Below, one piece after another: positions 1-61,821 of a DNA stretch of 64,000 bases. The translations under genes and the position numbers were made by a program. Source of the DNA: Flavobacteriaceae bacterium PS02337 (lineage in GTDB: Bacteria > Bacteroidota > Bacteroidia > Flavobacteriales > Flavobacteriaceae). The notes beneath the pieces were generated by a model. That model saw only the letters and a program-made list of their open reading frames with translations, ran no database searches and was not told where the DNA came from. Position 1 is the stretch's first letter; each line of letters begins with the position of its first letter. Where the stretch lies: assembly GCA_029959285.1 (NCBI GenBank), contig JASCOE010000013.1, positions 62,001 to 126,000 of the forward strand, written 5' to 3'.

Positions 1-1010
1 CAATCGACGGCAAAGATGTTGACGGTTTTTATTTGAGCGAAAATGATCCTGCAAACGGAAACGAACTTCTTTTTACCAAACAAAAACCTTACGTCATTTA
101 CGGATATGCCGGAGTTCCAGAAAATAAAACCATAATTTTTGAAGCTGGCGCACGAGTTCACTTCCATGCAAATTCTGGATTGTACGTTGCCAAAAATGCT
201 ACTCTTCAAATTAATGGAACAACTTCTTCAACAGAAAAACTCGAAAACGAAGTTATTTTTGAAGGCGATCGTTTAGAACCGCTTTACTCGGATATTCCTG
301 GACAATGGAAATCGGTTATTTTTGAAAAAAGTAGCACAAATCACTCGATCAATCATTTAACTTTAAAAAATGCAACGACTGGTTTAGATTTTAGAAGTCC
401 GCTAAATACTGTTCAAATTAAAAATACTCAGATTTACAATTGCGTTGAATACGGAATTTTAGCCCAAAACACTAAAATCGTTGGCGAAAATATTGTAATC
501 AATTACGCTGGTTTAGCAAGTTTATCATGCGTTTACGGAGGAGATTACAAATTTACACATTGTACATTCCATAATAATTGGCCAAATCCATCGCATTTCG
601 CAGTCAATTTGAGCAATAGTTTGACTGGAGCAACACCTGAAACAAATCCGTTAACTCAGGCAACTTTCAACAATTGTATTATTTATGGTTCGAATTTTAA
701 CGAATTCAATATCAGTAAAAATACATCCTCTGCATTTGTTTACCAATTGAACAATTGTTTATTGAAATTCGGAAGCACGACAAATCCTAATTATCAATTC
801 AAAACTGACACCGAACATTATAACAATATTATTTTGAATGAAAATCCGAAGTTTTATAATGTTTCTCAGAATAAATTCAATATCGATAAAACTTCTGCCG
901 CTTTCGCGAAAGGAAATCAGTCGTATTTAATTGCAAAAGATATTTTAGGAATTACGAGAACTTCTCCGCCAGATTTGGGCGCTTATCAGAGTCAAGATTT
1001 TCCGAAGTAA
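1..1010 (+). CDS. Right-handed beta-helix surface protein, 5' end outside window
   Basis: The frame is open from base 3 at the window edge through the TTG at 33, so the true start and any signal peptide are outside; about 335 residues are visible. The chain is a ladder of short strands and Asn/Gly turns (GLYVAKNATLQINGT, NHLTLKNATTGLDF, YGILAQNTKI), as in right-handed parallel beta-helix proteins. It ends in PPDLGAYQ, which resembles the DIGAYE-type ending of many such repeats. No T9SS sorting domain follows. It is probably a cell-surface or periplasmic protein; substrate and enzyme activity cannot be told. The next gene starts 11 bases downstream on the same strand, so the two may be cotranscribed. 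Confidence 0.6.
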   Translation, partial: IDGKDVDGFYLSENDPANGNELLFTKQKPYVIYGYAGVPENKTIIFEAGARVHFHANSGLYVAKNATLQINGTTSSTEKLENEVIFEGDRLEPLYSDIPGQWKSVIFEKSSTNHSINHLTLKNATTGLDFRSPLNTVQIKNTQIYNCVEYGILAQNTKIVGENIVINYAGLASLSCVYGGDYKFTHCTFHNNWPNPSHFAVNLSNSLTGATPETNPLTQATFNNCIIYGSNFNEFNISKNTSSAFVYQLNNCLLKFGSTTNPNYQFKTDTEHYNNIILNENPKFYNVSQNKFNIDKTSAAFAKGNQSYLIAKDILGITRTSPPDLGAYQSQDFPK

Positions 1011-1021
1011 ATTAAAAATTT

Positions 1022-1606
1022 ATGAAATTAACTTTTGCATTGTTCATTTGTCATCTATTCTTTATTAATGCATTTGCTCAGAATACAATAACTATTAAAT
1101 GTGATTCTATTTATAAAAATAAGGGCATTACAATAAAACTTGTAAATTTTGAAACTAAAAAAGAGGGTTACGACGGTGAAAAAAATTCAATCCTAATTAT
1201 CAGTCAAAAAGTAAATAATAAATCTTCAACTATAATAAAAGATTCTATTTTTAGTTTTGTTCAAAAAATTGAATTTCAAGATTACAACAACGATGGTGTA
1301 AAAGATATTTTAGTTCAAAATATTTCTGATGTTCGAAGTAATTGGACCTATAATTTATATCTGTACAACCCGAAAACTAATAATTTCAAAAGAGTAAATG
1401 GTTTTGAAGAAATAAAAAATCCAAGTTACAATTCGAAATATAAGATTATTGAAAGTCATGTATCTTCTGGCACAAATTGGGCAGCATTCTATAAAATCAA
1501 AAACAACAAAGTTTATAATTATAATATTGAGATAATTGATGACGGCAGTTCAAAAGCTGAAAAAGAATATAGAAAAGCCATAAAAAAGATTTTAGAAAAA
1601 AAATAA
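1022..1606 (+). CDS. Secreted hypothetical protein with an Asp-rich FG-GAP-like loop
   Basis: 194 residues with a clear signal peptide (hydrophobic residues about 3-19, ending INAFAQ), so it is exported to the periplasm or beyond. The centre contains QDYNNDGVKDILV, a calcium-loop-like motif seen in FG-GAP/VCBS-type and XAC2610-like secreted proteins. No catalytic motif is visible. It lies 11 bases after the beta-helix gene and is followed by about 180 AT-rich bases before the nuclease. I do not recognise a specific family; the export call is firm and the fold call is weak. Confidence 0.6.
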   Translation: MKLTFALFICHLFFINAFAQNTITIKCDSIYKNKGITIKLVNFETKKEGYDGEKNSILIISQKVNNKSSTIIKDSIFSFVQKIEFQDYNNDGVKDILVQNISDVRSNWTYNLYLYNPKTNNFKRVNGFEEIKNPSYNSKYKIIESHVSSGTNWAAFYKIKNNKVYNYNIEIIDDGSSKAEKEYRKAIKKILEKK

Positions 1607-1785
1607 AACTTTTTATTTTACTACTTTCAAGTCAAAAATCAATAGTAAGAAAATATATCCAAAATTAAACATCGCTTAACGTTTCGTATTCATAAAAGTA
1701 ATAGATTTGTTATAATACATTTTTAAATTTCTAAAAATCAGATTCTTAAAAAAGTATTTAACACCCAAATCTTAAAATACTATTT

Positions 1786-3636
1786 ATGAAAAAAAACTAC
1801 TTTTTAGTCTTATTACTCTGCGTTAGTGTCTGTTTTTCTCAAATTCCTTCTGGATATTACAATACCGCAACTGGAACGGGTTACACTTTAAAAACACAAT
1901 TGTACAATATTATTAAAAACCATACCAATAATGGTTACGCAGGTTTGTACACTACTTATCTAACTTCTGACGTTGATAATTTTTACGAAAACGACGGAAC
2001 TATTTTAGACATGTATTCTGAAAATCCATCAGGAACAGATCCGTACAACTATACAACTGGAACGACTCAAAGATGTGGAAATTATTCTGTTGAAGGTGAT
2101 TGCTACAATCGAGAACACATTATTCCACAATCTGTCTTTAATGAACAGTCACCAATGGTTGCCGATGCGCATTTCATCACACCAACCGATGGAAAAGTAA
2201 ACGGAATGCGTTCCAACTATCCGCACGGAACTGTAAGTTCAGCAACATATACTTCACAAAACGGAAGTAAATTAGGTTCAAGTTCTGTTTCAGGTTATTC
2301 AGGAACTGTTTTTGAACCCATAAATGCATTTAAAGGCGATATTGCTCGAATGTATTTTTACTTCGCAACGAGATATGAAAATACAGTTGCAGGGTATTCT
2401 TATGCCATGTTTGACGGTTCAAGCAATAAAGTTTTTACGACTGCATTTTTGAATGTTCTTTTGGCATGGCACGCACAAGATCCTGTAAGTGCTAGAGAAA
2501 TTGCAAGAAATAATGCGATTTATGGTCGTCAAAACAACCGAAATCCGTTTATTGATCATCCAGAATATGTAAATCAAATTTGGGGAGGAACTCCTCCATC
2601 TGGAGATACTCAAGCACCAACAACTCCAACGAGTTTGGTTTCGACTTCAAAAACTGCTACTTCAATTTCACTTTCGTGGAATGCTTCTACAGATAATGTA
2701 GCCGTTACTGGTTATGACGTTTACGCGAATAGCGTTTTAAAAACAACTGTTTCCGGAGTTACAGCTACAATTACAGGTTTAACAGCTTCTACAGCTTATT
2801 CTATTTATGTTAAAGCAAAAGATGCAGCCGGAAATGCTTCTGCGTCAAGCAATACCATTTCGGTTACAACCAACAGTAGCGGAACAGGAACAGCAACCGA
2901 TTTGCTTTTCTCTGAATACATTGAAGGTTCTGGAAATAACAAAGCATTGGAAATTGCCAATAATACCGGAAGTTCTATTAGTTTGTCTGCTTACACTGTT
3001 AAAAAACAAACCAACGGCGCGGGTTCATGGAGTACAGGTTTAGCTTTAAGCGGCACTTTAACAACCGGAAGTAAATTTGTAATTGTAAACAGTTCCATGT
3101 CTTCTAGCTGTTTTGCTACAAGTGCTGCCAACATTTCAACAACGGCAACCGAATTGACTTTTAATGGAAATGATGCTGTAGGTTTATTTAAAAACGGAGT
3201 TTTAATTGATATCATCGGAACTTTTAATGGAGGAACCGCCAATTTTGCTGCAGATGTTACCTTAAGAAGAAAATCGACTGTGACTTCACCAAGTGCAACA
3301 TTCAATTTAAGCGCACAATGGGATTCGTATGCGACTGATACTTGTAATAATTTGGCAAGCAAAAAAGTTCAAACAGCTATTGAGGATGAGGAAATTATTA
3401 TCGAATCTGATGAAATTGTAATTTATCCAAATCCTTCTGACGGAAATTTCAATATAGAATCTCAGAATTCAGATCCATATTCAATTGAAGTTTTCTCATT
3501 TTCGGGACAAAAAGTTTTCGATAAGCAAAACATAACTTCTTCTGAAGTTTCTTTACAAAATTTATCTTCAGGAATCTACTTTATTAAAATCACAAAAGGA
3601 GAAAAAACGTCTTATAAAAGGATAATTATTAATTAA
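1786..3636 (+). CDS. Secreted endonuclease I family nuclease with FnIII, lamin-tail and T9SS domains
   Basis: 616 residues. A signal peptide (1-19, ending VCFSQ) is followed by an endonuclease I / NucM domain (about 20-262) with the His motif NREHIIPQS around residue 111 and two Cys nearby (RCGNYS, GDCYNRE). A fibronectin type III domain follows (about 275-363; TSISLSWNASTDNVAVTGY), then a lamin-tail-like domain (about 370-480; LLFSEYIEGSGNNKALEI). The last 75 residues form a type A T9SS sorting domain (VIYPNPSDGNFNIES, LSSGIYFIKI). The protein should be exported by Sec, moved through the outer membrane by type IX secretion, and degrade DNA or RNA outside the cell. It stands alone and ends in a strong hairpin terminator. 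Confidence 0.93.
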   Translation: MKKNYFLVLLLCVSVCFSQIPSGYYNTATGTGYTLKTQLYNIIKNHTNNGYAGLYTTYLTSDVDNFYENDGTILDMYSENPSGTDPYNYTTGTTQRCGNYSVEGDCYNREHIIPQSVFNEQSPMVADAHFITPTDGKVNGMRSNYPHGTVSSATYTSQNGSKLGSSSVSGYSGTVFEPINAFKGDIARMYFYFATRYENTVAGYSYAMFDGSSNKVFTTAFLNVLLAWHAQDPVSAREIARNNAIYGRQNNRNPFIDHPEYVNQIWGGTPPSGDTQAPTTPTSLVSTSKTATSISLSWNASTDNVAVTGYDVYANSVLKTTVSGVTATITGLTASTAYSIYVKAKDAAGNASASSNTISVTTNSSGTGTATDLLFSEYIEGSGNNKALEIANNTGSSISLSAYTVKKQTNGAGSWSTGLALSGTLTTGSKFVIVNSSMSSSCFATSAANISTTATELTFNGNDAVGLFKNGVLIDIIGTFNGGTANFAADVTLRRKSTVTSPSATFNLSAQWDSYATDTCNNLASKKVQTAIEDEEIIIESDEIVIYPNPSDGNFNIESQNSDPYSIEVFSFSGQKVFDKQNITSSEVSLQNLSSGIYFIKITKGEKTSYKRIIIN

Positions 3637-3656
3637 AAAATAGATTTTCATAAACT

Positions 3657-3684
3657 AAAAAGCGGCAAATTGCCGCTTTTTTTA
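3657..3684 (+). terminator. Rho-independent terminator of the nuclease gene
   Basis: Perfect stem AGCGGCA / TGCCGCT with an AAT loop, A-rich before and seven T after, 20 bases past the nuclease stop codon. Confidence 0.85.
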
Positions 3685-3963
3685 TGTCGCAAAGACCATT
3701 TTTAGAGAAATTGCAGATTTTATTTATTTTCAGGTTTCGTAAATTTTGCAATACTTTTTTCGGAGAGAAACTAAAATATGAGGCTATCCTTTTTGTTTTT
3801 TTCCTTTCTAAAAGTTTAATATAACAGAAGATGTCAAGGGCAAATTTTGAATAAATACCCGAAATTAATAAAAGACCAAAATCTCTTGATTCTGCGTCTT
3901 TTTGGTAGAAAAAATGCAAGAAAAAAGCAATTTCATTTTTTTTGAAAAGAGATCGTTTTCAAA
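3685..3963. other. Gene-free AT-rich stretch upstream of purL
   Basis: I see no supportable gene here. A minus-strand frame running from 3919 to 3629 crosses the terminator hairpin, has a composition unlike the neighbouring proteins and no promoter, so it is treated as chance. The purL promoter begins at its right edge. Confidence 0.6.
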
Positions 3964-3995
3964 TTTGCGCTTACTATTTATTTACATTAAATTTG
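3964..3995 (+). promoter_or_regulatory. Bacteroidetes-type promoter of purL
   Basis: TTTG at 3964-3967 and TAAATTTG at 3988-3995 with a 20-base spacer, matching the TTTG / TAnnTTTG consensus of the Bacteroidetes primary sigma factor. The -7 box lies 25 bases before the purL ATG. No purine riboswitch is visible in the short leader. Confidence 0.8.
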
Positions 3996-4020
3996 CAGCT
4001 CAATACAACAAACTACACAA

Positions 4021-7000
4021 ATGATCCATTTCTTTGAAAACCAAAGCAAAACTGTTTTTGCCGTACAAACGCAAAACGAAATTTCAGCTCAAGACATTTC
4101 AAAATTAAACTGGCTTTTTGCCGACTCAAATAAGATCGAAAAATCTGCATTGACAGGTTTTTTTGTTGGTCCTCGCGCCACGATGATCACGCCTTGGAGT
4201 ACAAATGCTGTAGAAATTACTCAAAACATGGGAATTTCTGGCATTATCAGAATCGAAGAATTTCATCCAGCAACGGAAGATTTTACTGATTTTGACCCAA
4301 TGCTTTCTCAAAAATTCAACGAATTAGATCAAGAAATCTTCACTATCAACATTCAACCAGAACCAATTTTGGAGATTGATGATATTGCAACTTACAACAA
4401 AGTTGAAGGTTTAGCTTTAAGCGAAGAAGAAGTAGATTACTTAAACAATCTTTCGACTAAACTAGGAAGAAAATTAACTGATTCTGAAATTTTTGCTTTC
4501 TCGCAAGCGAATTCAGAGCACTGTCGTCACAAGATTTTCAACGGAACTTTTGTTATTGACGGTGAAGAAAAAGAGACTTCTCTTTTCAAATTAATCAAAA
4601 AAACATCTCAGGAAAATCCTAATGATATTGTTTCTGCTTACAAAGACAACGTTGCTTTTGTAAAAGGGCCAAAAGTGCAACAATTTGCACCAAAATCGGC
4701 AGACAAACCTGATTTTTACGAAATAAAAGAATTTGATTCGGTTATCTCATTAAAAGCCGAAACACACAATTTCCCAACAACAGTTGAGCCTTTCAACGGA
4801 GCTGCAACAGGTTCTGGAGGAGAAATTCGTGACCGTTTAGCTGGAGGTCAAGGTTCATTGCCATTAGCCGGAACTGCAGTTTATATGACTTCATATTCAC
4901 GTTTGAACAACGACAGAAAATGGGAAAATGCTCTTGAAGAAAGAAAATGGTTGTACCAAACTCCAATGGATATTTTAATCAAAGCTTCAAACGGAGCTTC
5001 TGATTTTGGAAATAAATTTGGTCAACCGCTTATTACAGGTTCAGTTTTAACTTTCGAACATTCAGAAAACGACCGTAAAATTGGTTACGATAAAGTAATC
5101 ATGCAAGCGGGCGGAATTGGATACGGAAAACTGGATCAATCAATTAAAAAGAAACCACAAGAAGGCGACAAAATCGTAATTCTTGGTGGAGAAAATTATA
5201 GAATCGGAATGGGTGGTGCTGCGGTTTCTTCTGCAGACACAGGAGCTTTCGGTTCAGGAATTGAGTTGAATGCGATTCAGCGTTCAAACCCAGAAATGCA
5301 AAAACGTGCTGCAAACGCAATTCGTGGTTTGGTAGAAAGTGATAGTAACCCAATTGTTTCTATTCACGATCACGGAGCTGGAGGACACTTAAACTGTCTT
5401 TCGGAATTGGTTGAAGAAACTGGAGGTTTGATCGACTTGGATAAATTACCAGTTGGAGATCCAACACTTTCTGCAAAAGAAATTATTGGTAATGAATCTC
5501 AAGAAAGAATGGGATTAGTTATTGGTCAAAAAGATATTGATACGTTACAAAGAATTGCCGACAGAGAGCGTTCGCCAATGTATCAGGTTGGAGATGTAAC
5601 GGGAGATCACCGTTTTACTTTCGAATCAAAATCAAATGGTTCAAAACCGATGGATTATGCTTTAGAAGATTTCTTCGGAAGTTCTCCAAAAACGGTTATG
5701 ACAGACAAAACTATCGATAGAAAATATGCTGATGTTGCTTACAACGCAGGAGATTTTGAATCATATTTAAAAGACGTTTTACGTTTAGAAGCCGTTGCTT
5801 CAAAAGATTGGTTGACAAACAAAGTGGACCGTTGTGTTGGAGGAAAAGTGGCTAAACAACAAAATGCAGGTCCGTTACAATTGCCTTTGAATAATGTGGG
5901 AGTTATGGCTCTGGATTATTTAGGAAAAGAAGGAATTGCAACTTCTATCGGCCACGCTCCTATCGCAGCTTTGATCGATCCTGTTGCAGGAAGTAGAAAT
6001 GCTATTGCAGAATCGTTATCAAACATTATCTGGGCACCAATTAAAGACCAATTAAAAGGTATTTCATTGTCTGCAAACTGGATGTGGGCTTGTAAAAACG
6101 AAGGTGAAGACGCTCGTTTGTACGCTGCTGTTGAAGGTTGTTCAGAATTTGCAATTGAATTGGGAATCAATATTCCGACAGGAAAAGATTCACTTTCGAT
6201 GAAACAAAAATATCCTAATGACGAAGTAATCGCGCCTGGAACGGTTATTATTTCTGCTGGAGGAAATTGTACTGACATTAGAAAAGTAGTTGAACCAGTT
6301 TTACAGAAAAACGGAGATTCTATTTATTATATCAATTTGTCTCAAGATGATTTCAAATTGGGAGGTTCTTCTTTTGCACAAATTAGAAATACAATCGGAA
6401 ACGAAACTTCTACGATTAAAGATGCTTTTTTCTTCAAAAACGCATTTAATACAGTTCAGGAATTAATCGGCGAAAGCCAGATTTTAGCAGGTCACGATAT
6501 CGGAAGCGGTGGTTTAATTACTACTTTATTAGAATTGTGTTTTGCTGATGTAAATCTTGGAGCTAAAATTGATTTCTCTGCATTTGCAGAAAAAGACTTA
6601 TTGAAAATCCTTTTCGCTGAAAACATCGGAATCGTTTTTCAAGCTAAATCTGACGCAGCTGTTGAAGCTAAATTGAATGCTAATAATATCGAATTCTTCA
6701 AAATTGGATCTGTTCAAGAAACTGCAACTTTAGAAATTGCAGATTACAAATTAGATATTCCAACTTACCGCGATGTATGGTTTGAAACTTCTTATTTATT
6801 AGATCAAAAACAATCTAAAAATGGAACAGCAAAAGCTCGTTTCGAAAACTATAAAAATCAGGTTTTAAATTATACTTTCCCTGCACATTTCACAGGAAAA
6901 GCACCTGTCATCTCGAGCGGAGTCGAGAGACCAAAAGCGGCTATTATTCGTGAAAAAGGAAGTAATTCTGAGCGAGAAATGGCAAATGCTATGTACTTAG

Positions 7001-7674
7001 CAGGTTTTGACGTAAAAGACGTTCACATGACGGATTTAATTTCGGGTCGTGAAACTCTTGAGGATATTCAGTTTATTGGTGCGGTTGGAGGATTTTCTAA
7101 CTCTGACGTTTTAGGTTCTGCTAAAGGTTGGGCTGGAGCTTTCTTATACAACGAAAAAGCAAAAACAGCTTTAGATAACTTCTTTAAAAGAGAAGATACT
7201 TTATCTGTCGGAATCTGTAACGGATGTCAGTTGTTTATGGAATTGGAAGTTATTAATCCAGAACACGAAGTTCATGGAAAAATGCACCATAACGAGAGCC
7301 AGAAACACGAAAGTATCTTTACATCTGTAACGGTTCAGGAAAATAACTCTGTGATGTTATCTACTTTGGTTGGAAGCACTTTAGGAGTTTGGGTTTCTCA
7401 CGGAGAAGGTAAATTTAAATTACCTTATTCAGAAGACCAATATAACATTGTTTCTAAATATGCTTACGAAGGTTATCCTGCAAACCCGAACGGTTCTGAT
7501 TACAACACAGCAATGATGTGTGATAAAACAGGAAGACATTTGGTTATGATGCCTCATATTGAGCGCTCAACTTTCCAATGGAACTGGGCACATTATCCAA
7601 AAGACAGAAATGACGAGGTTTCGCCTTGGCATGAAGCTTTTGTTAATGCAAGAAAATGGATTGAGAAAAACTAA
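4021..7674 (+). CDS. purL: Phosphoribosylformylglycinamidine synthase, long single-chain form
   Basis: 1217 residues, the usual size of the fused PurL/PurQ enzyme. It converts FGAR, glutamine and ATP to FGAM in de novo purine synthesis in the cytosol. Seen: an N-terminal PurS-like region, the synthase core (FSQANSEHCRHKIFNGTF, SLKAETHNFPTTVEPFNGAA, GAGGHLNCLSEL) and a C-terminal class I glutaminase with nucleophile Cys in VGICNGCQLF and PHIERSTFQWNW near the end. The start is ATG at 4021, 25 bases after a consensus promoter; the gene is monocistronic with its own terminator. Odd: the linker before the glutaminase carries VISSGVERPK, encoded by a copy of an intergenic palindromic repeat (see findings). 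Confidence 0.97.
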   Translation: MIHFFENQSKTVFAVQTQNEISAQDISKLNWLFADSNKIEKSALTGFFVGPRATMITPWSTNAVEITQNMGISGIIRIEEFHPATEDFTDFDPMLSQKFNELDQEIFTINIQPEPILEIDDIATYNKVEGLALSEEEVDYLNNLSTKLGRKLTDSEIFAFSQANSEHCRHKIFNGTFVIDGEEKETSLFKLIKKTSQENPNDIVSAYKDNVAFVKGPKVQQFAPKSADKPDFYEIKEFDSVISLKAETHNFPTTVEPFNGAATGSGGEIRDRLAGGQGSLPLAGTAVYMTSYSRLNNDRKWENALEERKWLYQTPMDILIKASNGASDFGNKFGQPLITGSVLTFEHSENDRKIGYDKVIMQAGGIGYGKLDQSIKKKPQEGDKIVILGGENYRIGMGGAAVSSADTGAFGSGIELNAIQRSNPEMQKRAANAIRGLVESDSNPIVSIHDHGAGGHLNCLSELVEETGGLIDLDKLPVGDPTLSAKEIIGNESQERMGLVIGQKDIDTLQRIADRERSPMYQVGDVTGDHRFTFESKSNGSKPMDYALEDFFGSSPKTVMTDKTIDRKYADVAYNAGDFESYLKDVLRLEAVASKDWLTNKVDRCVGGKVAKQQNAGPLQLPLNNVGVMALDYLGKEGIATSIGHAPIAALIDPVAGSRNAIAESLSNIIWAPIKDQLKGISLSANWMWACKNEGEDARLYAAVEGCSEFAIELGINIPTGKDSLSMKQKYPNDEVIAPGTVIISAGGNCTDIRKVVEPVLQKNGDSIYYINLSQDDFKLGGSSFAQIRNTIGNETSTIKDAFFFKNAFNTVQELIGESQILAGHDIGSGGLITTLLELCFADVNLGAKIDFSAFAEKDLLKILFAENIGIVFQAKSDAAVEAKLNANNIEFFKIGSVQETATLEIADYKLDIPTYRDVWFETSYLLDQKQSKNGTAKARFENYKNQVLNYTFPAHFTGKAPVISSGVERPKAAIIREKGSNSEREMANAMYLAGFDVKDVHMTDLISGRETLEDIQFIGAVGGFSNSDVLGSAKGWAGAFLYNEKAKTALDNFFKREDTLSVGICNGCQLFMELEVINPEHEVHGKMHHNESQKHESIFTSVTVQENNSVMLSTLVGSTLGVWVSHGEGKFKLPYSEDQYNIVSKYAYEGYPANPNGSDYNTAMMCDKTGRHLVMMPHIERSTFQWNWAHYPKDRNDEVSPWHEAFVNARKWIEKN
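6906..6930 (+). repeat. Intergenic-type palindromic repeat inserted in frame in purL
   Basis: The bases contain TCTCGA-GCGGAG-TCGAGA, a short hairpin preceded by TGTCA. I recall this as the core of a repeat found between genes in flavobacteria, and it resembles the TGTCATTTCGA arms of the palindromic elements at 32135 and 46070. Here it is translated as VISSGVER without breaking the frame. Confidence 0.6.
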
Positions 7675-7689
7675 GAAATATATTTTTAT

Positions 7690-7720
7690 TAAAGCGCCCG
7701 ATAATTTCGGGCGCTTTTTT
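7690..7720 (+). terminator. purL terminator
   Basis: AAAGCGCCCGA / TCGGGCGCTTT stem with an AATT-type loop and a run of seven T, 16 bases after the purL stop codon. Confidence 0.88.
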
Positions 7721-7805
7721 TATAGCCACAGATTAAAAGGATTAAAATGATTTTTCTAAACTCTAAAAAATAATCTGTGATAATTCTTTTAATCTGTGGC
7801 TATAA
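7720..7805. repeat. 86-base inverted-repeat (MITE-like) element
   Basis: Left arm 7720-7744 and right arm 7781-7805 are 25-base inverted repeats with one mismatch (TTATAGCCACAGATTAAAAG at the outer ends), enclosing 36 AT-rich bases. It begins at the last T of the purL terminator. It has no coding capacity and looks like a small non-autonomous palindromic repeat. Confidence 0.7.
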
Positions 7806-7849
7806 AAAACATCCCAACGCTATCCCCACATCGTTAGGACATTATTTAT

Positions 7850-8131
7850 TTAATCTTTAAAAGCTGATGCAATTCCGGTTACAATATTGGCAGTTCCAAA
7901 AGCAAATAAGCCAGAAGCGATTGCCGTTTGTCCAGAGAAATATTGACTTTCGCGAGCTATAATACTAAAAATTGTTCCGCCAGCAAGTCCAGCAATTAAA
8001 CCTAGACCAATTGTAGAAATAATCCACCACGGTTCTGGTTCTGGAATTGGATGTTTCTTTAATAATTCACGCCACCAGCCAGGATATTTCGTTCCGCACC
8101 AACCCATCGCTAAGAAAAAAGCAGTTTCCAT
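7850..8131 (-). CDS. Small membrane protein, hypothetical
   Basis: 93 residues. A Trp-rich N-terminal part (MGWCGTKYPGWWRELL) is followed by a hydrophobic segment with Gly zippers (about 37-58, IISTIGLGLIAGLAGGTIF) and a second weak hydrophobic stretch (about 70-88), so one or two membrane passes are likely. I do not recognise a family. It stands alone, convergent with purL across the inverted-repeat element. Composition is protein-like and no overlapping frame competes. Confidence 0.6.
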   Translation of the reverse strand: METAFFLAMGWCGTKYPGWWRELLKKHPIPEPEPWWIISTIGLGLIAGLAGGTIFSIIARESQYFSGQTAIASGLFAFGTANIVTGIASAFKD

Positions 8132-8338
8132 AATAATTTAATTTTATGTGTTGCCTACTCGTTTGCTTTTCGGCTTCCGCATTCTTACGGGATAAAAGTA
8201 ATAGGACTAGATTTTAAAAAGAACATGAAATTTCCTGTTTTTAAAGGGGAAAAACACCTTTTTTTAAGTACTTCTTTTTACTTTCTTAATTCAATTAATA
8301 AAAACTAAGCTTAATTTAATAGTATCTTAAGGCGCATT

Positions 8339-14900: not shown

Positions 14901-15050
14901 AACTTTTTTTTAAAGGTTCTGAGGTGCTAAGATGCTAAGCAACTAAGCTTTTTTCTCTGAACAAATATTACAATCGTTCTACGCAATTATTCTGCGTACT
15001 TTTTTTTAAAGGTTCTGAGATGCTAAGATTCTAAGAGGCTAAGCTTTTTT
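14901..15050. repeat. Pair of about 50-base direct repeats flanking a promoter
   Basis: 14901-14953 and 14998-15050 are near-identical (TTTTTTTAAAGGTTCTGAGR, then GCTAAGAT and CTAAGCTTTTTT). The 44 bases between them hold the inverted-repeat promoter. The words TTCTGAG and CTAAGAT belong to a common intergenic repeat family here. Confidence 0.6.
14962..14999 (-). promoter_or_regulatory. Inverted-repeat promoter P3 (RNA-repair type)
   Basis: On the minus strand TACGCA-GAATAAT-TGCGTA is followed, with the end of its TTGCG word exactly 20 bases upstream of the end of the -7 box, by TAATATTTG (box 14962-14969). The word, inner spacing and distance equal those of the promoters before rsr (25749-25787) and the Y RNA array (24132-24170). 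It would drive the 52-residue frame and the Lys-rich gene. Confidence 0.65.
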
Positions 15051-21555: not shown

Positions 21556-22977
21556 TCAGTCCTCACGGCTTCCATCATCTGCCATTCTTACCAATTTTGG
21601 AGTAAACTTCGCCACAACATCCACTAAATCCTGTTGTGCTTCCATCACCTGATTGATATCTTTATACGCCATTGGGGCTTCGTCTAGACCTGCTCCGATA
21701 AGCGTAACGCCATGATCTTTCAGGATGGTTTTCATTTCGGTTTGTGTGATGTTTTTGATGGCTTGGGTTCTGCTCATTTGTCTTCCTGCTCCATGCGAAG
21801 CCGAATTTATGGCGTTCTCCTCGCCTTTTCCTCTCACCAAAAATCCTGGTGCGGTCATACTTCCCGGAATGATTCCCATAACGCCTTTTCCAGCTGGAGT
21901 TGCTCCTTTTCTATGTACGATCACTTCTTCGCCGTTCCAGATTTCTTTCCAAGCGAAATTATGATGGTTTTCGACTTTGGCTAAAATCGTCGCACCCAAA
22001 GCGCGTTCCATTTTGTTATGGATAATTTCGTGACAAGCCGAAGCGTAATCTCCCGCCAAATTCATCGCCAACCAGTATTCCTGACCTAATTGTGAATTCA
22101 CATCTAAATACGCTAAGTTTTTTGCTACTTCTGGAAGTTTACATTCGTCTTTGGCGATTTTCGTATAATGTCCCGCAATTGTTGCGCCCATTCCTCGTGA
22201 ACCAGAATGCGTTAACAAAGCGATGTATTTTCCTTTTGGGATATTTAGAACTGCATCGTCTTGGGCGAATTCCATGATTCCGAATTCGACAAAGTGATTT
22301 CCACCACCCGAAGATCCTAATTGCGACCAGGCTTTATCTTTCAAATTCTTCACAAACGGATTCATATTAAAAGTTTCATTCTCCAAAACCGCATGATCTG
22401 ATTTGTACTGACCGTGAAATCCGTGACCCGCTCCAAAAATAGAATTGGCAATTAATTCTTTTTTGAATTTGGCTTCGTTTTCAAAGTAAAAAGCTTCTGG
22501 AATATCATAAACCGACAACGCCATTCTACATCCAATATCAACTCCAACACCATACGGAATAATGGCATTTTTTGTGGCTAAAACTCCGCCAATAGGCAAT
22601 CCGTAACCTTGGTGTGCGTCTGGCATTAAAGCTCCGGCAACTGTAACAGGCAGTTTCATGGCAACTTCCATTTGTTTTCTGGCTCCGTCTTCGATATGAT
22701 CTAATCCGTAAGCGGAATACGCATTTGGATTTTCGTTTAAAGCGATAAAATCTTCTGGTTTTTCATTCGATTTTTCGATCAAAGCCACAGCCAATTTGCT
22801 GAAGATTTTATCGTCTATATAATTCTCCGGAGTTTCTAAGACGTTTTTGAAATTTGTAATCATTTCGTCTCTTTTAAATCCGTGTCTTTTACTGTTTATT
22901 TTTAAGGCGATTCCGATTATTTTTCCTTCTGGGAATCCTAATTCTAATATATCTGTACCGTTTATTTGTGTTTTCAT
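21556..22977 (-). CDS. rtcB: RNA-splicing ligase RtcB
   Basis: 473 residues from ATG 22977 (MKTQINGTDI); the longer frame starts in an intergenic repeat. RtcB joins RNA ends bearing 2',3'-cyclic phosphate or 3'-phosphate to 5'-OH ends using GTP and Mn. Motifs: PDAHQGYGLPIGGV, GVGVDIGCRMAL (Asp and Cys metal ligands), GSSGGGNHFVEF, LLTHSGSRGMGA, and SASHGAGRQMSR with the His that is guanylylated. It is last in the minus-strand order rsr, Y-like RNA array, SUKH gene, rtcB. No RtcA cyclase, archease or RtcR is nearby. Family call certain; a role in repair of cleaved tRNA follows from the locus. Confidence 0.96.
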   Translation of the reverse strand: MKTQINGTDILELGFPEGKIIGIALKINSKRHGFKRDEMITNFKNVLETPENYIDDKIFSKLAVALIEKSNEKPEDFIALNENPNAYSAYGLDHIEDGARKQMEVAMKLPVTVAGALMPDAHQGYGLPIGGVLATKNAIIPYGVGVDIGCRMALSVYDIPEAFYFENEAKFKKELIANSIFGAGHGFHGQYKSDHAVLENETFNMNPFVKNLKDKAWSQLGSSGGGNHFVEFGIMEFAQDDAVLNIPKGKYIALLTHSGSRGMGATIAGHYTKIAKDECKLPEVAKNLAYLDVNSQLGQEYWLAMNLAGDYASACHEIIHNKMERALGATILAKVENHHNFAWKEIWNGEEVIVHRKGATPAGKGVMGIIPGSMTAPGFLVRGKGEENAINSASHGAGRQMSRTQAIKNITQTEMKTILKDHGVTLIGAGLDEAPMAYKDINQVMEAQQDLVDVVAKFTPKLVRMADDGSRED

Positions 22978-23043
22978 TTTTTTGTTTTTTAAGGGACAAA
23001 GGAGCAAAGGTTTTTTTACTACTTCGCAGTTGTTCTGTGTTGT

Positions 23044-23574
23044 TTAAAATCTTAAAAATTCATTCTTTAAGTATTCTTTCAAATTATCTCCATATACAAT
23101 TATATCAGAACCCCAAACTGAAATGACCGGAGATAGATTTTTATCTGCAAAAACAACCAAAGCTCTATGACTGTATATTGGAACATAACCCACAATTTTA
23201 GAAACATCAAAACCTGCTTCTCTTAGAGCTTCTTCAGCATAAATTTTAAACTCTTTTATTTCTTTAACGAGCCAATTTGATTTCTCAATATCTCTAGGAT
23301 ATTGGTAAAAAGAATCATTAAATTTTATTTCATCTTCTCCATCTGGATCAATTGAAATTTCTAAAGTATCAAGTCCACCAATATTTAAAAGCATTTCTCT
23401 GTATTCCCAAGGAAAATCAAATCCAAATAATAATTGTAATTGATCTATTTCTTTTCTGCTTATTCCTTTTAAAAACTTTGTGTTAGGCTGAATTTGAAAA
23501 CCGTAAATATCATCACGAAGTTTTATTCGTTTAAAATTCTTTTCCGCTTTATTTTTTATTTCTTTGATTGTCAT
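23044..23574 (-). CDS. SMI1/KNR4 (SUKH) family protein in the RNA repair operon
   Basis: 176 residues. The SUKH core is visible: an N-terminal helix with ISRKEIDQLQLLFGFDFPWEYREMLLNIGG, a central acidic segment, and a C-terminal SPVISVWGSDIIVYGDNLKEYL strand-helix. SUKH proteins are mostly immunity proteins against nucleic-acid-cleaving polymorphic toxins, and in yeast scaffolds. It lies 29 bases after the last Y-like RNA unit and 66 bases before rtcB, so it should be cotranscribed with both. No toxin gene is adjacent. It may protect against an RNase or regulate the pathway; this is inference. Confidence 0.8.
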   Translation of the reverse strand: MTIKEIKNKAEKNFKRIKLRDDIYGFQIQPNTKFLKGISRKEIDQLQLLFGFDFPWEYREMLLNIGGLDTLEISIDPDGEDEIKFNDSFYQYPRDIEKSNWLVKEIKEFKIYAEEALREAGFDVSKIVGYVPIYSHRALVVFADKNLSPVISVWGSDIIVYGDNLKEYLKNEFLRF

Positions 23575-23603: not shown

Positions 23604-23674
23604 AAAAGAGGTAACATTTAGGAATGGTTTAATTTTCTTGGAACGAAGGAACCATTTCCTGACGACACTCTTTT
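23604..23674 (-). ncRNA. Y-like RNA unit 5 (hairpin only)
   Basis: 71 bases. Closing stem AAAAGAG / CTCTTTT; internal loop TGTCGTC opposite AAATGTTAC; upper stem AGGAA(A)TGGTT / AACCATTCCT with one bulged A; apical loop with TCCTTCGT. No tRNA-like arm. It begins one base after unit 4 and precedes the SUKH gene by 29 bases. No terminator follows, so the array probably reads into SUKH-rtcB. Confidence 0.65.
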
Positions 23675-23675
23675 T

Positions 23676-23760
23676 TAAGAGCAATATTCTATAAGCGACT
23701 TTTAGGATTCGAACCTAATATTATCAACCAACGAAGTAGCGCTTTATAGACGGCATCTTA
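23676..23760 (-). ncRNA. Y-like RNA unit 4 with T-arm
   Basis: 85 bases. Closing stem TAAGA / TCTTA; internal loop TGCCGT opposite AATATTGC; upper stem CTATAA(A)GCG / CGCTTATAG with one bulged A; then TACTTCGTTGGTTGATAA and a perfect T-arm, TTAGG-TTCGAAT-CCTAA. ACTT pairs with AAGT just below the T-arm. The GTTGGTT loop could play the D-loop part in an elbow-like contact. This is a shortened tRNA mimic. Confidence 0.7.
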
Positions 23761-23764
23761 TTTT

Positions 23765-23836
23765 TTGAAAAGGTAATAATTGATGAGAGTATTTTGAAAC
23801 CTATACGAAGTAGCTCTCACACACGACATTTTTCAA
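23765..23836 (-). ncRNA. Y-like RNA unit 3 (hairpin only)
   Basis: 72 bases. Closing stem TTGAAAA / TTTTCAA; internal loop ATGTCGTG opposite AATTATTACC; upper stem TGAGAG / CTCTCA; loop containing TACTTCGT. It lacks a T-arm, so it would be only the Ro-binding part of a Y RNA. Confidence 0.65.
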
Positions 23837-23841
23837 TTTTT

Positions 23842-23977
23842 AAAAAGAAGTAAAAAGCAATAAGAGAAACGGGGCTTGTCTTGCCAGAGTCGAACTGGAT
23901 AACCTTGCTGATTTTACAACTTCGCTATTCCTCCCCAAATTGCTGACGAAGTAACTCTTATTTACGACATTCTTTTT
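23842..23977 (-). ncRNA. Y-like RNA unit 2 with tRNA-like domain
   Basis: 136 bases, the longest unit. Closing stem AAAAAGAA / TTCTTTTT; internal loop with TGTCGT; upper stem AATAAGAG / CTCTTATT; then TACTTCGT. The inner domain is closed by GGGG / CCCC and contains a T-arm, CCAG-TTCGACT-CTGG, preceded by a degenerate D-like segment (TAGCGAAGTTG ... ATCAGCA). Here the order is D-like then T-arm, as in an ordinary tRNA that lacks an anticodon arm. ACTTCG can also pair with CGAAGT inside it, so the exact fold is uncertain. Confidence 0.65.
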
Positions 23978-23985
23978 TTATTTTT

Positions 23986-24104
23986 AAACAAGATAACATT
24001 CAAAAAGACATATTCTGCTCTAACCAACTGAGCTACAATCTATAAAAAGAATGATGGGAATTGAACCCACGACACGAAGGAATTCTTTTTTACGACACTT
24101 GTTT
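23986..24104 (-). ncRNA. Y-like RNA unit 1, circularly permuted tRNA mimic (YrlA type)
   Basis: 119 bases. Closing stem AAACAAG / CTTGTTT; TGTCGT opposite AATGTTAT; upper stem AAAAAGA / TCTTTTT, then ATTC / GAAT. Inside, in order: TCCTTCGT, a T-arm (GTGGG-TTCAATT-CCCAT), a hairpin joining the two acceptor strands (CATTCT ... AGATTG, TTTTAT loop, one mismatch), TA, and a D-arm (GCTC-AGTTGGTTA-GAGC). So the T-arm comes before the D-arm, the acceptor end is capped, and the Ro-binding stem replaces the anticodon loop. Bacterial YrlA Y RNAs have this arrangement. It lies just after rsr. Confidence 0.82.
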
Positions 24105-24131: not shown

Positions 24132-24170
24132 CAAATATTCAAATCATACTGCGCAATTATTTTGCGCAGT
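24132..24170 (-). promoter_or_regulatory. Inverted-repeat promoter P2 of the Y-like RNA array
   Basis: Minus strand: a 9-base perfect dyad ACTGCGCAA / TTGCGCAGT around AATAA (24148-24170), then the -7 box GAATATTTG (24132-24139). From the end of TTGCG to the end of the box is 20 bases, as at P1 and P3. The predicted start is about 20 bases before the first paired base of unit 1, and the dyad is 12 bases past the rsr stop codon, so the array can be transcribed apart from rsr. Confidence 0.75.
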
Positions 24171-24181
24171 AGATTTAAAAT

Positions 24182-25699
24182 TTACAATTCTATTCGATTA
24201 ATGTAATTCAAAGCGCTGTTTTTATCGTCTAAAGCATTCAAAACATCAAACACTTTATCTGACCAACCGGCTATTAAATATACATCGTTTTTTTCGATGT
24301 TAATTGGCGACTGACCGTAACCAGCCAAATCAAACAAATACAATTTTGAGTTTGGTGCGATACTTTTGTATCGACTCCAAGAGTTTGCAAATGAGTCTTT
24401 TGTGTAAGCATTATTCCACATTTGAACATCTGTAAACAACATTACTTTATCGACAACTTCTTTTCGGGCGATTAAATCTTCCAAAACCAAATGACCGTTT
24501 GTAGCATAACCTACTTCACCTTCACGTTTGTAATATTCGTTAACGTTTGCCAATATGCTTCGTTTTGGCATATTGATTATTTTCCAACGATCACCAAACA
24601 TACCGCTCACTACATTTTTACAACGGCTTTGCATTAACATACCCAACATCAAACCAATATCATAAAGTAATACTTTACTTTTTGGTGAAATTGGCTGTTG
24701 CATTGAACCTGAAACGTCACAAGCAATTACAACTGATGTGTTTACATCAAAACCTTTTATGTTTTGTGAACTGATCGTAACCGCATCTTCCAAAGCATCT
24801 AAAACCATTGAAGTATATTTGAAATTCAAATCTTTCACTTCACGATACGCAGCTAAAAATCGGAATGGCAATTGTTTTGAGTTGGCGACTGCTTTTTCGT
24901 TAGAAAGATAATCGCATACTTTTTGCATATGAAAACCCGAAACATTCGCTTCTAAGATATTTCGTAAGTTACGCAACAATGCCATGTAACCTATTTTACC
25001 GCTATCGATTAATTCTTCCCATTTTTGAGTGAATGCTTTTTGCTTTTCATTCTCATTATAGAATTTCACTTGACCTAATTGAGACAACTCAGTTTCCCAA
25101 GTATATGGCGTTTGCAAAGTATTCGTTGCAACTTTATTAAAGATTGATTGCTGTGCTTCATCTTTTGCTTTTGGGTGAACCAAAAACAAGGCATCTTTTA
25201 ATTTTACAGCACCATCACGATTGTATTTTGCGAATTGGTATTCATCAAATTTATTGAACGAAATTGCCAAACCTTTTTGGATTTGTTTTGATAAACGGTT
25301 TAATTTCTTAACGTCGTTTCGTTCGTTTGCCATTTGATAGTAAGCCAACAATTCTGTTATTTCGTCTGCACGTTGTATAACATTAATTATCATTTTACTG
25401 ATTAATGAATCGCCAGAATATATTTTTGCCAATTCTACAACCAAAACCAATGGTACGGAACGCATATGCATTTCGTTACGGGCATAAACTGCCAACTTTG
25501 CCACAAATACTGGATTACATTTTTTAATCAAGTTTTTGATTCGCTCTAAACGAGTTGTATCTTTTTCATAAAATGAAGCACTCAAACTTGTTGTTACAAC
25601 TGCTGCGTACAATTCGTATTCTGATGTTAAAGAAAAAGCTGGTGCGTTTTCGTGATTAACTATATTGTTTTTCTCTTTTGATAAAAAATTGAATTTCAT
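24182..25699 (-). CDS. rsr: Ro60 ortholog Rsr (TROVE plus vWA domain)
   Basis: 505 residues. The N-terminal two thirds is a TROVE domain of HEAT-like helices (FSLTSEYELYAAVVTTSLSA, LIKKCNPVFVAKLAVYARNE, MRSVPLVLVVELAK, GKIGYMALLRNLRNILEANV), which forms a ring that binds Y RNA outside and single-stranded ends of misfolded RNA in its hole. The C-terminal third is a vWA domain with an intact MIDAS, VIACDVSGSMQQP, and FTDVQMWNN. Rsr with Y RNA recruits exonucleases such as PNPase for RNA quality control. It starts the minus-strand island and is transcribed from promoter P1. Confidence 0.95.
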   Translation of the reverse strand: MKFNFLSKEKNNIVNHENAPAFSLTSEYELYAAVVTTSLSASFYEKDTTRLERIKNLIKKCNPVFVAKLAVYARNEMHMRSVPLVLVVELAKIYSGDSLISKMIINVIQRADEITELLAYYQMANERNDVKKLNRLSKQIQKGLAISFNKFDEYQFAKYNRDGAVKLKDALFLVHPKAKDEAQQSIFNKVATNTLQTPYTWETELSQLGQVKFYNENEKQKAFTQKWEELIDSGKIGYMALLRNLRNILEANVSGFHMQKVCDYLSNEKAVANSKQLPFRFLAAYREVKDLNFKYTSMVLDALEDAVTISSQNIKGFDVNTSVVIACDVSGSMQQPISPKSKVLLYDIGLMLGMLMQSRCKNVVSGMFGDRWKIINMPKRSILANVNEYYKREGEVGYATNGHLVLEDLIARKEVVDKVMLFTDVQMWNNAYTKDSFANSWSRYKSIAPNSKLYLFDLAGYGQSPINIEKNDVYLIAGWSDKVFDVLNALDDKNSALNYINRIEL

Positions 25700-25748: not shown

Positions 25749-25787
25749 CAAAGATTTCAAAACCACTACGCAATTATTTTGCGCAGT
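25749..25787 (-). promoter_or_regulatory. Inverted-repeat promoter P1 of rsr
   Basis: Minus strand ACTGCGCAA-AATAA-TTGCGTAGT (25765-25787, one mismatch in the dyad), then AAATCTTTG (-7 box 25749-25756), with the same 20-base distance as P2 and P3. No TTTG -33 box is present at the normal place, so the dyad may replace it as an activator site or cover it as an operator. On the plus strand the same dyad lies upstream of the HD-domain gene. Confidence 0.75.
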
Positions 25788-26590: not shown

Positions 26591-26649
26591 AATTGGAACC
26601 GAAAAAATTATTTTAAAAAAAGGGATAATGAAATTTCATTATTAACGTA

Positions 26650-26746
26650 AATGCGTGAGGGATTGAAGTGGAGCTCTTTTTTAAGGCGATTTTTCTTGGC
26701 CTTAAAAAAAGCGGGAACGTAAAGCCCGACCCGGAGGGGCACGCCC
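26650..26746. repeat. GC-richer structured intergenic element upstream of the WYL gene
   Basis: Contains GTGGAGCT, a long hairpin (TTTTTTAAGGC / GGCCTTAAAAAA, 26676-26710), then GCGGGAACGTAAAGCCCGAC and a GGGC-AC-GCCC hairpin. It stands out by base content and ends 15 bases before the WYL start codon, so it may be in the WYL leader. It shares the GGAGCT ... AGCCC theme with elements at 16210-16245 (minus) and 61658-61742. Confidence 0.5.
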
Positions 26747-26761
26747 AAAAAAAACATTCTT

Positions 26762-27799
26762 ATGTCACAAAACAAAAACGCTTTAATTCGGTACAAAACA
26801 ATCGATAAATGTCTGCAGAATAAATACCGGCAATGGACTTTAGAAGATTTAATCGAATGTTGTTCTGAAGCTTTATTTGAATATGAAGGTCGACAAAACC
26901 CAATCAGCAAAAGAACTATTCAAATGGATATTCAGCTGATGCGAAGTGAAAAACTCGGATATAATGCGCCAATCGTGGTTTACGACAAAAAGTATTATAA
27001 ATATGAAGACGAAGATTTTACGATAACCGATATTCCGCTGACGGAAACGGATATGAATGTTTTGACAGAAACGGTTTCGATGTTGAAACAGTTTAAAGAT
27101 TTCTCTTTATTTAATGATGTATCGGATATTTTACAGCGATTGGAAGATAAAATCTACGCCGAAAAATCGCATACGAAACCTGTTATTTATTTGGATAAAA
27201 ATGAAAATCTAAAAGGATTGCATTATTTGGATGAAATTTATCAGGCGATTATCAAAAAGATGGTGCTAATTATTACTTATAAATCTTTTAAATCCAGAGA
27301 AGAAACAAAATTCCATTTTCATCCGTTTATTTTAAAGGAATTCAATAATCGTTGGTTTTTAGTCGGAAAGAAAAAAGCCTCTCAGCCGATTACGAATTTG
27401 GCTTTAGACAGAATTATTTCTATAGATTACGATTTTAATCTTCCCTACTTAGAAGAAGATTTTGATGCCGATGATTATTATAAAGATGTAATTGGAGTTA
27501 CAGTCAATTCTGGATTGAAAGCAAGGCGAATTGAATTATGGGTCGATGCCTCGAATGCGCCTTACGTACTTACAAAACCTTTGCATACTTCTCAGCGATT
27601 AATTAAAGAAAATGAAGACGGAAGTGTTATTATACATATATATGTAATACCGAATTACGAAATGGAAAGGCTTTTATTAGGTTTTGGAAGCTGTCTTGAA
27701 ATTTTAAGACCTGAAAGTCTCAGAAATCGTATGAAAAAGATCATAAAAGATGCAATTTCAAGATATGAAAACGAAAATTCAACTGAAATTAATTCATGA
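26762..27799 (+). CDS. WYL-domain transcriptional regulator
   Basis: 345 residues. An N-terminal winged-helix part (LIRYKTIDKCLQNKYRQWTLEDLI ... ISKRTIQMDIQLMRSEK, about 8-75) precedes a linker, a WYL domain (about 150-225; LITYKSF, FHPFILKEFNNRWFLVG, NLALDRIISID) and a C-terminal WCX extension (about 245-335). WYL regulators sense nucleic acids or nucleotides and often control RNA/DNA repair or defence genes. It is 325 bases from the HD gene, in the RNA repair neighbourhood, and is the best local candidate to bind the dyads in P1 and P2; that link is inference. Confidence 0.85.
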   Translation: MSQNKNALIRYKTIDKCLQNKYRQWTLEDLIECCSEALFEYEGRQNPISKRTIQMDIQLMRSEKLGYNAPIVVYDKKYYKYEDEDFTITDIPLTETDMNVLTETVSMLKQFKDFSLFNDVSDILQRLEDKIYAEKSHTKPVIYLDKNENLKGLHYLDEIYQAIIKKMVLIITYKSFKSREETKFHFHPFILKEFNNRWFLVGKKKASQPITNLALDRIISIDYDFNLPYLEEDFDADDYYKDVIGVTVNSGLKARRIELWVDASNAPYVLTKPLHTSQRLIKENEDGSVIIHIYVIPNYEMERLLLGFGSCLEILRPESLRNRMKKIIKDAISRYENENSTEINS

Positions 27800-61477: not shown

Positions 61478-61821
61478 GTTTTCCGGAATTTTTGAATGTT
61501 ACGACAAATGTAGGCTATATATTTTTTCTCAGCAATAAAATCTAAATCAATTTTCGTTAAATAACATTTATCCGTATATTTATACTCATTTTAAATAAGC
61601 TTTTTTTAGGTTGCGAAACCTTTGAAATAAAGAGCTCATTTAAAAACATAATAATTTTCAGGAGCTGTTTCCTGCTGTCCGCTGTATCTTTTTATCCGCC
61701 GCGGCGGACAAAAAGGATGCCGCTTCCATCAGGGCTAGGGCGTTCATTTTCAAAAGAAATTTCAGTTACAATCTTATAAACAACATTTTACATTTTCAAA
61801 TAACATTTTACAATCGACAAA
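61478..61821. other. Gene-free gap upstream of fumC with a GC-rich repeat
   Basis: 61658-61742 is a GC-rich structured element: GGAGCTG, then a hairpin around the perfect palindrome TCCGCCGCGGCGGA (61695-61708) extended by ATCTTTTT / AAAAAGGAT, then GCCGCTTCCATCAGGGCT. It resembles a repeat I recall from other flavobacterial intergenic regions. The rest is AT-rich; I see no gene and no clear fumC -7 box. Confidence 0.55.

Follow-up and report, generated by a model that had tools for sequence, protein, structure and literature searches.

Introduction

Bacterial Y RNAs function in tethering PNPase in Deinococcus. In 2014 a survey (Chen et al.) reportedly found Y RNAs close to rsr in more than 250 species, and at least one unit per locus is said to carry a tRNA-like part. 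The YrlA family (Rfam RF02553) is distinguished by a permuted head, in which a T-arm is followed by a D-arm. In the part of one report that deals with YrlA, the RNA is linked to both rsr and rtcB and is considered a possible competitive inhibitor of an anticodon nuclease (PMC7790460). For the vertebrate Y RNAs, the section of a second report on the Ro60 site gives a seven-bp helix with a three-nt bulge opposite a C (PMC4726728).

The array, head types, and operator described here are a variant of these known bacterial Y RNA systems. The window (the whole stretch of DNA analysed, 64,000 nt from a Flavobacteriaceae genome) holds five units, U1–U5, that are predicted from sequence to be a divergent lineage of bacterial Y RNAs, missed by Rfam and arranged as an array. 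By structure, linkage, and a conserved spacing ('ruler') element these are Y RNAs; by Rfam's own threshold they are not YrlA.

Results

Locus organization

On the minus strand, the gene order is rsr, U1–U5, a SUKH gene, and rtcB. R1, used below, is a covariance model made from the units of relatives (alignment A1).

24182–25699, minus strand: rsr, Ro60 orthologue (TROVE and vWA domains; PF05731, 105.6 bits)
23986–24104, minus strand: U1, predicted Y RNA of 119 nt, T-arm then D-arm (the YrlA order); R1 E = 8.7e-11
23842–23977, minus strand: U2, predicted Y RNA of 136 nt with a type d head; R1 E = 1.2e-13
23766–23835, minus strand: U3, predicted short Y RNA hairpin of 70 nt without a T-arm; R1 E = 9.3e-15
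23676–23760, minus strand: U4, predicted Y RNA of 85 nt, T-arm only; R1 E = 8.2e-7
23604–23674, minus strand: U5, predicted short Y RNA hairpin of 71 nt without a T-arm; R1 E = 4.2e-16
23044–23574, minus strand: SUKH/SMI1-KNR4 gene (PF09346, 26.1 bits; cut-off 25.4)
21556–23007, minus strand: rtcB, RNA ligase (PF01139, 279.4 bits)

Profile and predicted fold together identify the product of rsr as a Ro60 protein. A second profile, PF25045, scored 21.4 bits, under its cut-off of 27.7, and the AlphaFold2 model (pLDDT 80.7, pTM 0.56) matched 13 chains at E ≤ 0.001, every one a Ro60/TROVE structure (including 1yvp and 2nvo), with Xenopus Ro bound to RNA and Deinococcus Rsr among them.

The preliminary description of this DNA had drawn five minus-strand units set 1–8 bases apart, and the linkers measure 8, 6, 5, and 1 nt, in order. 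The two motifs it had named, TGTCGT (or TGCCGT) and CTTCGT, occur in each of U1–U5, the interval from TGYCGT to T(A/C)CTTCGT is 10 nt in U1–U3 and 11 nt in U4–U5 as it had counted, and the three units given T-arms are U1, U2, and U4. Its AATRTTRC-like bases opposite the first motif hold for U4, U5, and, save for the last base (TTAT), U1, but U2 (TTTTTAC) and U3 (AATTATTAC) diverge, so that the common part is reduced to TTRC or TTAT. Placement of the array between rsr and rtcB likewise needs qualification: rsr lies directly upstream, but rtcB is not an immediate neighbour because the SUKH/SMI1 gene, which starts 29 nt past the array end, intervenes.

A search of the window with R1 recovered exactly U1–U5 (five matches, all on the minus strand, E ≤ 8.2e-7; runner-up E = 1.1), and across the whole genome, where four of the five units were listed, nothing else scored better than E = 0.43. 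At gathering thresholds, an Rfam scan of the window missed all five units, and ARAGORN found no tRNA among them. The Rfam scan of the window also placed Flavo-1 RNAs (RF01705) at 61664–61740 and 26640–26735 and a DUF805b element at 8152–8183.

Structure and covariation of the docking base

Cores were collected with a pattern that demanded T(G/T)(T/C)CG and TNCTTC, and the 3′ side of each was placed by the closing and upper stems alone. After removal of duplicates there were 546 cores from 100 loci, of which 515, from 98 loci, possessed both stems and were kept (31 dropped). The G position was opposed by C in 485 of the 515 cores and by T in 16, and the neighbouring Y-R pair was T-A in 235, C-G in 230, T-G in 35, C-A in 3, and other in 12; pairing percentages are inflated here because units were retained for having stems. 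Among the 316 distinct 30-mers, the Y-R pair was C-G in 150, T-A in 134, T-G in 21, and other in 11. As the pattern fixed the 5′ letters, the 3′ partner alone was free to vary, and the seeming invariance of the motif letters and the limitation to Y follow in part from the search itself, since the pattern demanded them; variants of the demanded motifs do occur (TACCGT, TTTCGT, CTTCA). The first units of three loci missed by the pattern (L012, L014, L015) replace G-C with A-U (TACCG with TTGT), and U1 in the window has G-U at this position.

The preliminary description had proposed stem covariation in relatives as a test, and the stems do covary, including the pair adjoining the bulged C that is the Ro-binding signature. 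A1, a diverse alignment of 34 of 36 non-redundant short units (from 107), had 87.9% of cells paired (shuffled, 64.2 ± 1.3%) and a covariation score of 0.703 (shuffled, 0.240 ± 0.018; slid versions, ≤0.179). RNAalifold independently returned 15 of the same 17 pairs and no others, with T10 and C13 unpaired. The same core was the fold of 34 distinct Flavobacterium last units, the counterparts of U5, which were chosen by order rather than by stems; these give little covariation, since most core pairs are invariant there.

The units thus resemble the vertebrate Ro60 site in having a helix, formed by the two ends, in which one bulged C adjoins conserved pairs. Unlike the vertebrate site as set out in the relevant section of PMC4726728, the window units add a bulged U and have a longer, partly conserved 3′ loop strand (NTTRC). 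A strand-swapped Ro site, in which the 5′ and 3′ halves would trade the places they have in YrlA, was considered and ruled out, as the Y-R covariation follows the ordinary orientation.

Could the block instead consist of degenerate tRNA genes? The T-arms in U1, U2, and U4 and the D-arm in U1 might suggest it, but the absence of ARAGORN calls, the two units without tRNA parts, the class-wide stem covariation, and the fixed spacing of the motifs, both of which (TGYCGT and CTTCGT) persist in relatives, leave this explanation with a negligible probability.

Distribution and linkage to rsr

Possession of rsr is sparse, with 35 of 399 genomes in the genus and 2 of 199 in the family (the window's own genome counted in both). 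Scanning named genomes turned up 228 relatives; the best 80, which were used here, include Flavobacterium, Chryseobacterium, Epilithonimonas, Pedobacter, Saprospiraceae, and Xanthocytophaga. The core pattern occurred downstream of rsr and on the same strand at 35 of 35 genus loci and 79 of 80 named loci, the 80th having a contig that stops ~200 nt past rsr; one locus from another genus (L005) is cut by a contig end. On the reverse strand the pattern matched 0–3 times per locus. The 98 loci with full cores held 2–10 units each (mean, 5.26), so that the 'one or two per locus' that the preliminary description had taken as usual is too low for the class. At E ≤ 0.01, R1 gave 332 matches in the 80 named loci, and the best 300 of these were all on the rsr strand and all downstream of rsr, except for one in L116.

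In a sample of 325 genomes from the class, TROVE was present in 16, and R1 matched 13 of those 16 compared to 0 of 309 others (Fisher, 1e-20). Of the three rsr genomes that R1 missed, two were recovered by local search and one (G653), whose units are GC-rich, by pattern. Within the genus, R1 matched 34 of 35 rsr genomes, the remaining one (G512) being recovered by local search, and 3 of 364 others. These tallies count genomes that supplied A1 (among the 13 class genomes at least one, G708, which is locus L096, and among the 34 genus genomes at least eight); with suppliers left out, they stand at 12 of 15 for the class and 26 of 27 for the genus. Overall, the array is not local to the window, and relatives across the class keep similar rows.

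For two of the three rsr-less genus genomes (G545 and G497) the R1 matches are AT-rich by eye and were set aside as chance. The third, Flavobacterium G585 (L130), has a genuine orphan array at 7031–8276 with five R1 matches, and no rsr was found in its 15-kb stretch or by a search of its genome. Genes near this array (334–4034) include, by eye, polynucleotide kinase-, RNA ligase-, and Hen1 methyltransferase-like ORFs. In another genome (G672; L190/L191) a ten-core array lies ~25 kb away from rsr.

The distribution bears on the possibility that the block is a structured 5′ leader regulating SUKH-rtcB in cis. The 29-nt distance to the SUKH start is compatible with a leader, as is the lack, in the window, of any site matching the operator pattern (below) between the array and rtcB. 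Yet 55 of the 80 named loci gave no rtcB match in the stretch examined (up to 4 kb past rsr), while the array stays with rsr in the named loci, and a leader is accordingly rated as very improbable.

Head types

A T-arm search divided the 515 units into 134 short hairpins, 72 mid-length units that have a T-arm, 196 long units whose T-arm comes early, 58 whose T-arm comes late (type d), and 55 that fell in no class. T-arms were called in 326 of the 381 mid and long units compared to 1 of 381 shuffled counterparts and in none of the 134 short units. Each of the 98 loci includes one or more T-arm units and with them a tRNA-like part. Where both arms were called, T preceded D, as in YrlA, in 145 units; the opposite order appeared in 10 units that look like false calls on type d, and the D-arm detector also fires on 39 of the 381 mid and long units once they are shuffled. 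The D-arms included a GCTCAG type and a GTGTAA..GGTAACAC type. The length-based classifier puts U1 in the T-arm-only class.

The type d head, found in U2, is non-permuted and consists of a GGGG/CCCC helix enclosing a 5 + 5 bp hairpin and a T-arm; among its relatives (alignment A2, 15 sequences), 7 of 18 pairs show double changes. A crossing GTC-GAC pairing, which is moderately supported, would turn this head into a pseudoknot. The pairing is possible in 34 of 41 unique pairs (permuted mean, 26.5; equalled in 0 of 2000 permutations), with the same GTC common to 34 of the 41 sequences, and neither four-letter versions nor versions displaced by one or two positions stood out.

Such resemblance raises the alternative that the heads serve mainly as decoys, tRNA look-alikes that absorb a tRNA-cutting toxin or nuclease while Rsr merely stabilises them. 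The heads resemble different tRNA classes, as judged by the two kinds of D-arm, an operator ties the array to rtcB in some loci, and anticodon-nuclease inhibition was raised for YrlA in the part of PMC7790460 cited above. Set against this, the 134 short units lack a T-arm and nevertheless retain the whole docking base, and no anticodon arm was noticed by eye in the units read. We regard a predominantly decoy role as improbable.

Separately, three tRNA genes (Rfam RF00005) lie within the Y RNA array of L096, at 6157–6389.

The ruler element and comparison with known systems

The interval from TGYCGN to TNCTTC, with 6–14 nt allowed, was 10 nt in 406 of the 515 units and 11 nt in 101. The length of the 3′ strand in A1 is mostly the same for 5′ strands of 10 and of 11 nt, so the additional base is probably bulged, as the preliminary description had it for the A in U4 and U5; a separate test for a balancing 5′ bulge, preferred in 72 of the 101 eleven-nt units and 204 of the 406 ten-nt units, was too crude to add to this. 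Counted from GNCG to ACUUC, the interval becomes 12 or 13 nt, and T(A/C)CTTC can be read as the local version of an element placed 12–13 nt past GN(C/U)G.

The same element recurs in other systems. The Rfam YrlA consensus has GGCG, 12 nt, and ACUAC, within a common ruler of GNCG, 12 nt, and ACUWC. On a Rhizobium plasmid (L349) the rsr-rtcB gap holds five Y units by pattern, in which ACUAC follows after 12 or 13 nt, while the reverse strand of the locus has none, and the corresponding gap in Methylosinus (L348) holds at least two with 12 or 13 nt; both differ from the window in that rtcR adjoins rsr and in the canonical GNCGAAUG..ACUAC form. In Deinococcus gobiensis (plasmid P2, L347) the Y RNA adjoins rsr, R1 matches one unit (E = 1.1e-5), and both units seen read, by eye, GGUG, 12 nt, and CCUUC; they differ in being GC-rich, in belonging to another host group, and in having no C at the bulge position, since the motif reads GGUG.

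Arrays of 3–7 units of the form T(G/T)GCGYAG..TNCTTC also lie by phage rsr in the Caulobacter phage CcrColossus (L344) and in viral contigs L202, L204, and L207. These differ in lying upstream of rsr and in having G rather than Y as the third base, by which the pair is apparently extended to G-C (TGGCG opposite TTCC or ATCC), and R1 gives CcrColossus a weak match or none. Seven TNCTTC units precede the CcrColossus rsr; of these, five or six satisfy the stricter (A/C)CT(A/T)C form with an interval of 12 or 13 nt. CcrColossus alone of eight named phage rsr regions had an array by pattern; two others (L342, L343) have single possible units, L338 has one weak R1 match (E = 0.024), and the rest had nothing clear. 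R1 matched 4 of 7 viral rsr contigs, and no clear Y units were seen on the archaeal plasmid L346. A viral scan with a 14-base pattern gave at least 120 stretches with one match each among the matches listed, which were taken as chance. Several phage loci carry tRNA genes: in L207 (2218–3505, upstream of the phage rsr) they are interleaved with Y units, in L202 many lie beyond rsr, and in CcrColossus an annotated tRNA-Gln (3128–3195) coincides in part with the third Y unit and is possibly a Y RNA annotated in error.

Because the element is present in units without tRNA-like domains and beside the rsr of unrelated hosts, Rsr is its most economical partner, and we infer that the ruler contacts Rsr itself.

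How far the units depart from described families can be judged against YrlA. U1 and the other long units share its permuted head, and the comparison with Rfam called for by the preliminary description found U1 at 48.6 bits, aligned across the T-arm and D-arm but below the gathering cut-off of 69, while the other window units were unmatched; six related loci scored 31–43 bits, all under the same cut-off. The simplest alternative is that these are ordinary, already covered Y RNAs, that several per locus is normal, and that the Rfam model is merely too narrow. The spacing element common to YrlA, Rhizobium, Deinococcus, and phage units argues for this, as do the five canonical units of the Rhizobium gap and the breadth that the Chen et al. 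survey reportedly found. It has to contend with a Bacteroidota Ro site of GYCGU rather than GNCGAA, CUUC in place of CUAC, arrays of up to 10 units (2–10) with some head types off the YrlA consensus, one of them unlike YrlA, and scores short of the gathering cut-off throughout the window and the six loci scanned; on balance we think it unlikely, though less so than a decoy role. A literature search returned no title reporting such arrays among the matches listed. That arrays as such are undescribed is unproven, and multi-unit loci also occur outside the Bacteroidota, on the Rhizobium plasmid and in the Caulobacter phage.

A shared operator and a candidate regulator

A paired motif, TRCGYA-N7-TRCGYA, precedes both rsr and the array, and the gene for a candidate regulator lies upstream of rsr.

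25767–25785, no strand assigned: operator copy ahead of rsr
24150–24168, no strand assigned: operator copy ahead of the array, 45 nt before U1
14980–14998, no strand assigned: third operator-like site, with a TAATATTTG box following on the minus strand
26762–27799, plus strand: WYL-WCX transcription factor, the candidate regulator (PF13280 and PF25583, over cut-off)

Across 752,283 bases the pattern had 195 sites (Markov control mean, 0.4). Of these, 83 lie no more than 300 nt ahead of rsr (in 76 of the 80 loci), 56 lie no more than 170 nt ahead of a unit (in 50 of the loci; absent there in the other 30), 11 precede rtcB (in 11 of the 25 loci with an rtcB match), and 45 lie elsewhere, several slightly farther ahead of the first recognised unit. 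Directly past the operator is a TANNTTTG-like box, which we take to be a Bacteroidota promoter element. A stricter form, TGCGYA-N7-TGCGYA, occurs at four places in the window's whole genome, namely the array, rsr, and two DUF5677-like genes. The latter (L199 1679–2614 and L200 1586–2434) score 13.8 and 26.9 bits against a cut-off of 27.1. In seven relatives the genome-wide operator counts were 1–7 compared to 0–3 for the backwards pattern, so some single sites are chance. The shared operator joins covariation and co-occurrence with rsr in supporting the original proposal of a multi-copy Y RNA cassette that mixes tRNA mimics with hairpins predicted to do no more than bind Ro.

The WYL protein is the likely regulator of rsr, the array, and some rtcB genes. 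A WYL-WCX homologue lies upstream of rsr at 29 of 80 named loci, and the WYL-rsr gap contains two operators in 7 of 8 distant relatives checked. Among ten genomes with no WYL gene at the locus, nine have an ortholog elsewhere (50–75% identity), which in one case lies a few kb from rsr, and in the tenth (L071/G919) a close WYL and the rsr operator are both absent. In G914 an operator lies ~0.5 kb ahead of the WYL gene. Counting against the link, L116 has the WYL gene and, by pattern, no operator. A domain of RtcR, the CARF-sigma54 activator, was found in none of the 7 neighbouring proteins scanned, one of which is the WYL-WCX protein.

A boxA motif before the array, presumably an antitermination signal, was also considered; it was exact in 25 of 98 first units compared to 5 of 238 control windows, but it is not a general feature of the arrays, because it is confined to Flavobacterium relatives.

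Discussion

The explanation that we hold to be highly probable is that the units are Y RNAs serving the neighbouring Rsr, with a common docking base, varied heads, and an operator-controlled array. Every unit would dock on the Rsr (Ro60) ring through the same base, a short helix with the G-C and Y-R pairs, the bulged C, an upper helix of near-constant length, and UACUUC(G) or UCCUUC(G) approximately one helical turn over the bulge. The heads would range from none (U3, U5) through a T-arm (U4) to a permuted tRNA mimic (U1) and a non-permuted T-arm (U2). Most likely the array is made as one RNA from its own operator-controlled promoter, perhaps continuing through SUKH and rtcB, and would be cut within the AT-rich linkers. 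The heads may join a single Rsr to different RNA-processing partners or gate the ring, and the WYL regulator may turn on rsr, the array, and rtcB, probably following RNA damage.

A more specific reading, offered tentatively and with somewhat less than an even chance of being right, is that bacterial Y RNAs constitute a modular library of adaptors. Here, the ruler (GN(C/U)G, 12 or 13 nt, (A/C)CUWC) would dock all units on Rsr in one orientation, and the heads would be exchangeable, among them a T-arm head that is non-permuted, pseudoknotted, and tethered by its acceptor end. These heads would direct a single Rsr ring to different tRNA-handling partners, and a Bacteroidota WYL RNA-damage regulon would comprise rsr, the array, and rtcB.

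The conserved 12–13 nt ruler suggests a second contact in addition to the bulged C. With several head types sitting on one docking base, the question of what bacterial Y RNAs do becomes testable. R1 extends Y RNA annotation to a class in which the scanned units score under the Rfam YrlA threshold, and the shared operator provides Ro60 and RtcB with a candidate regulator outside of the RtcR system.
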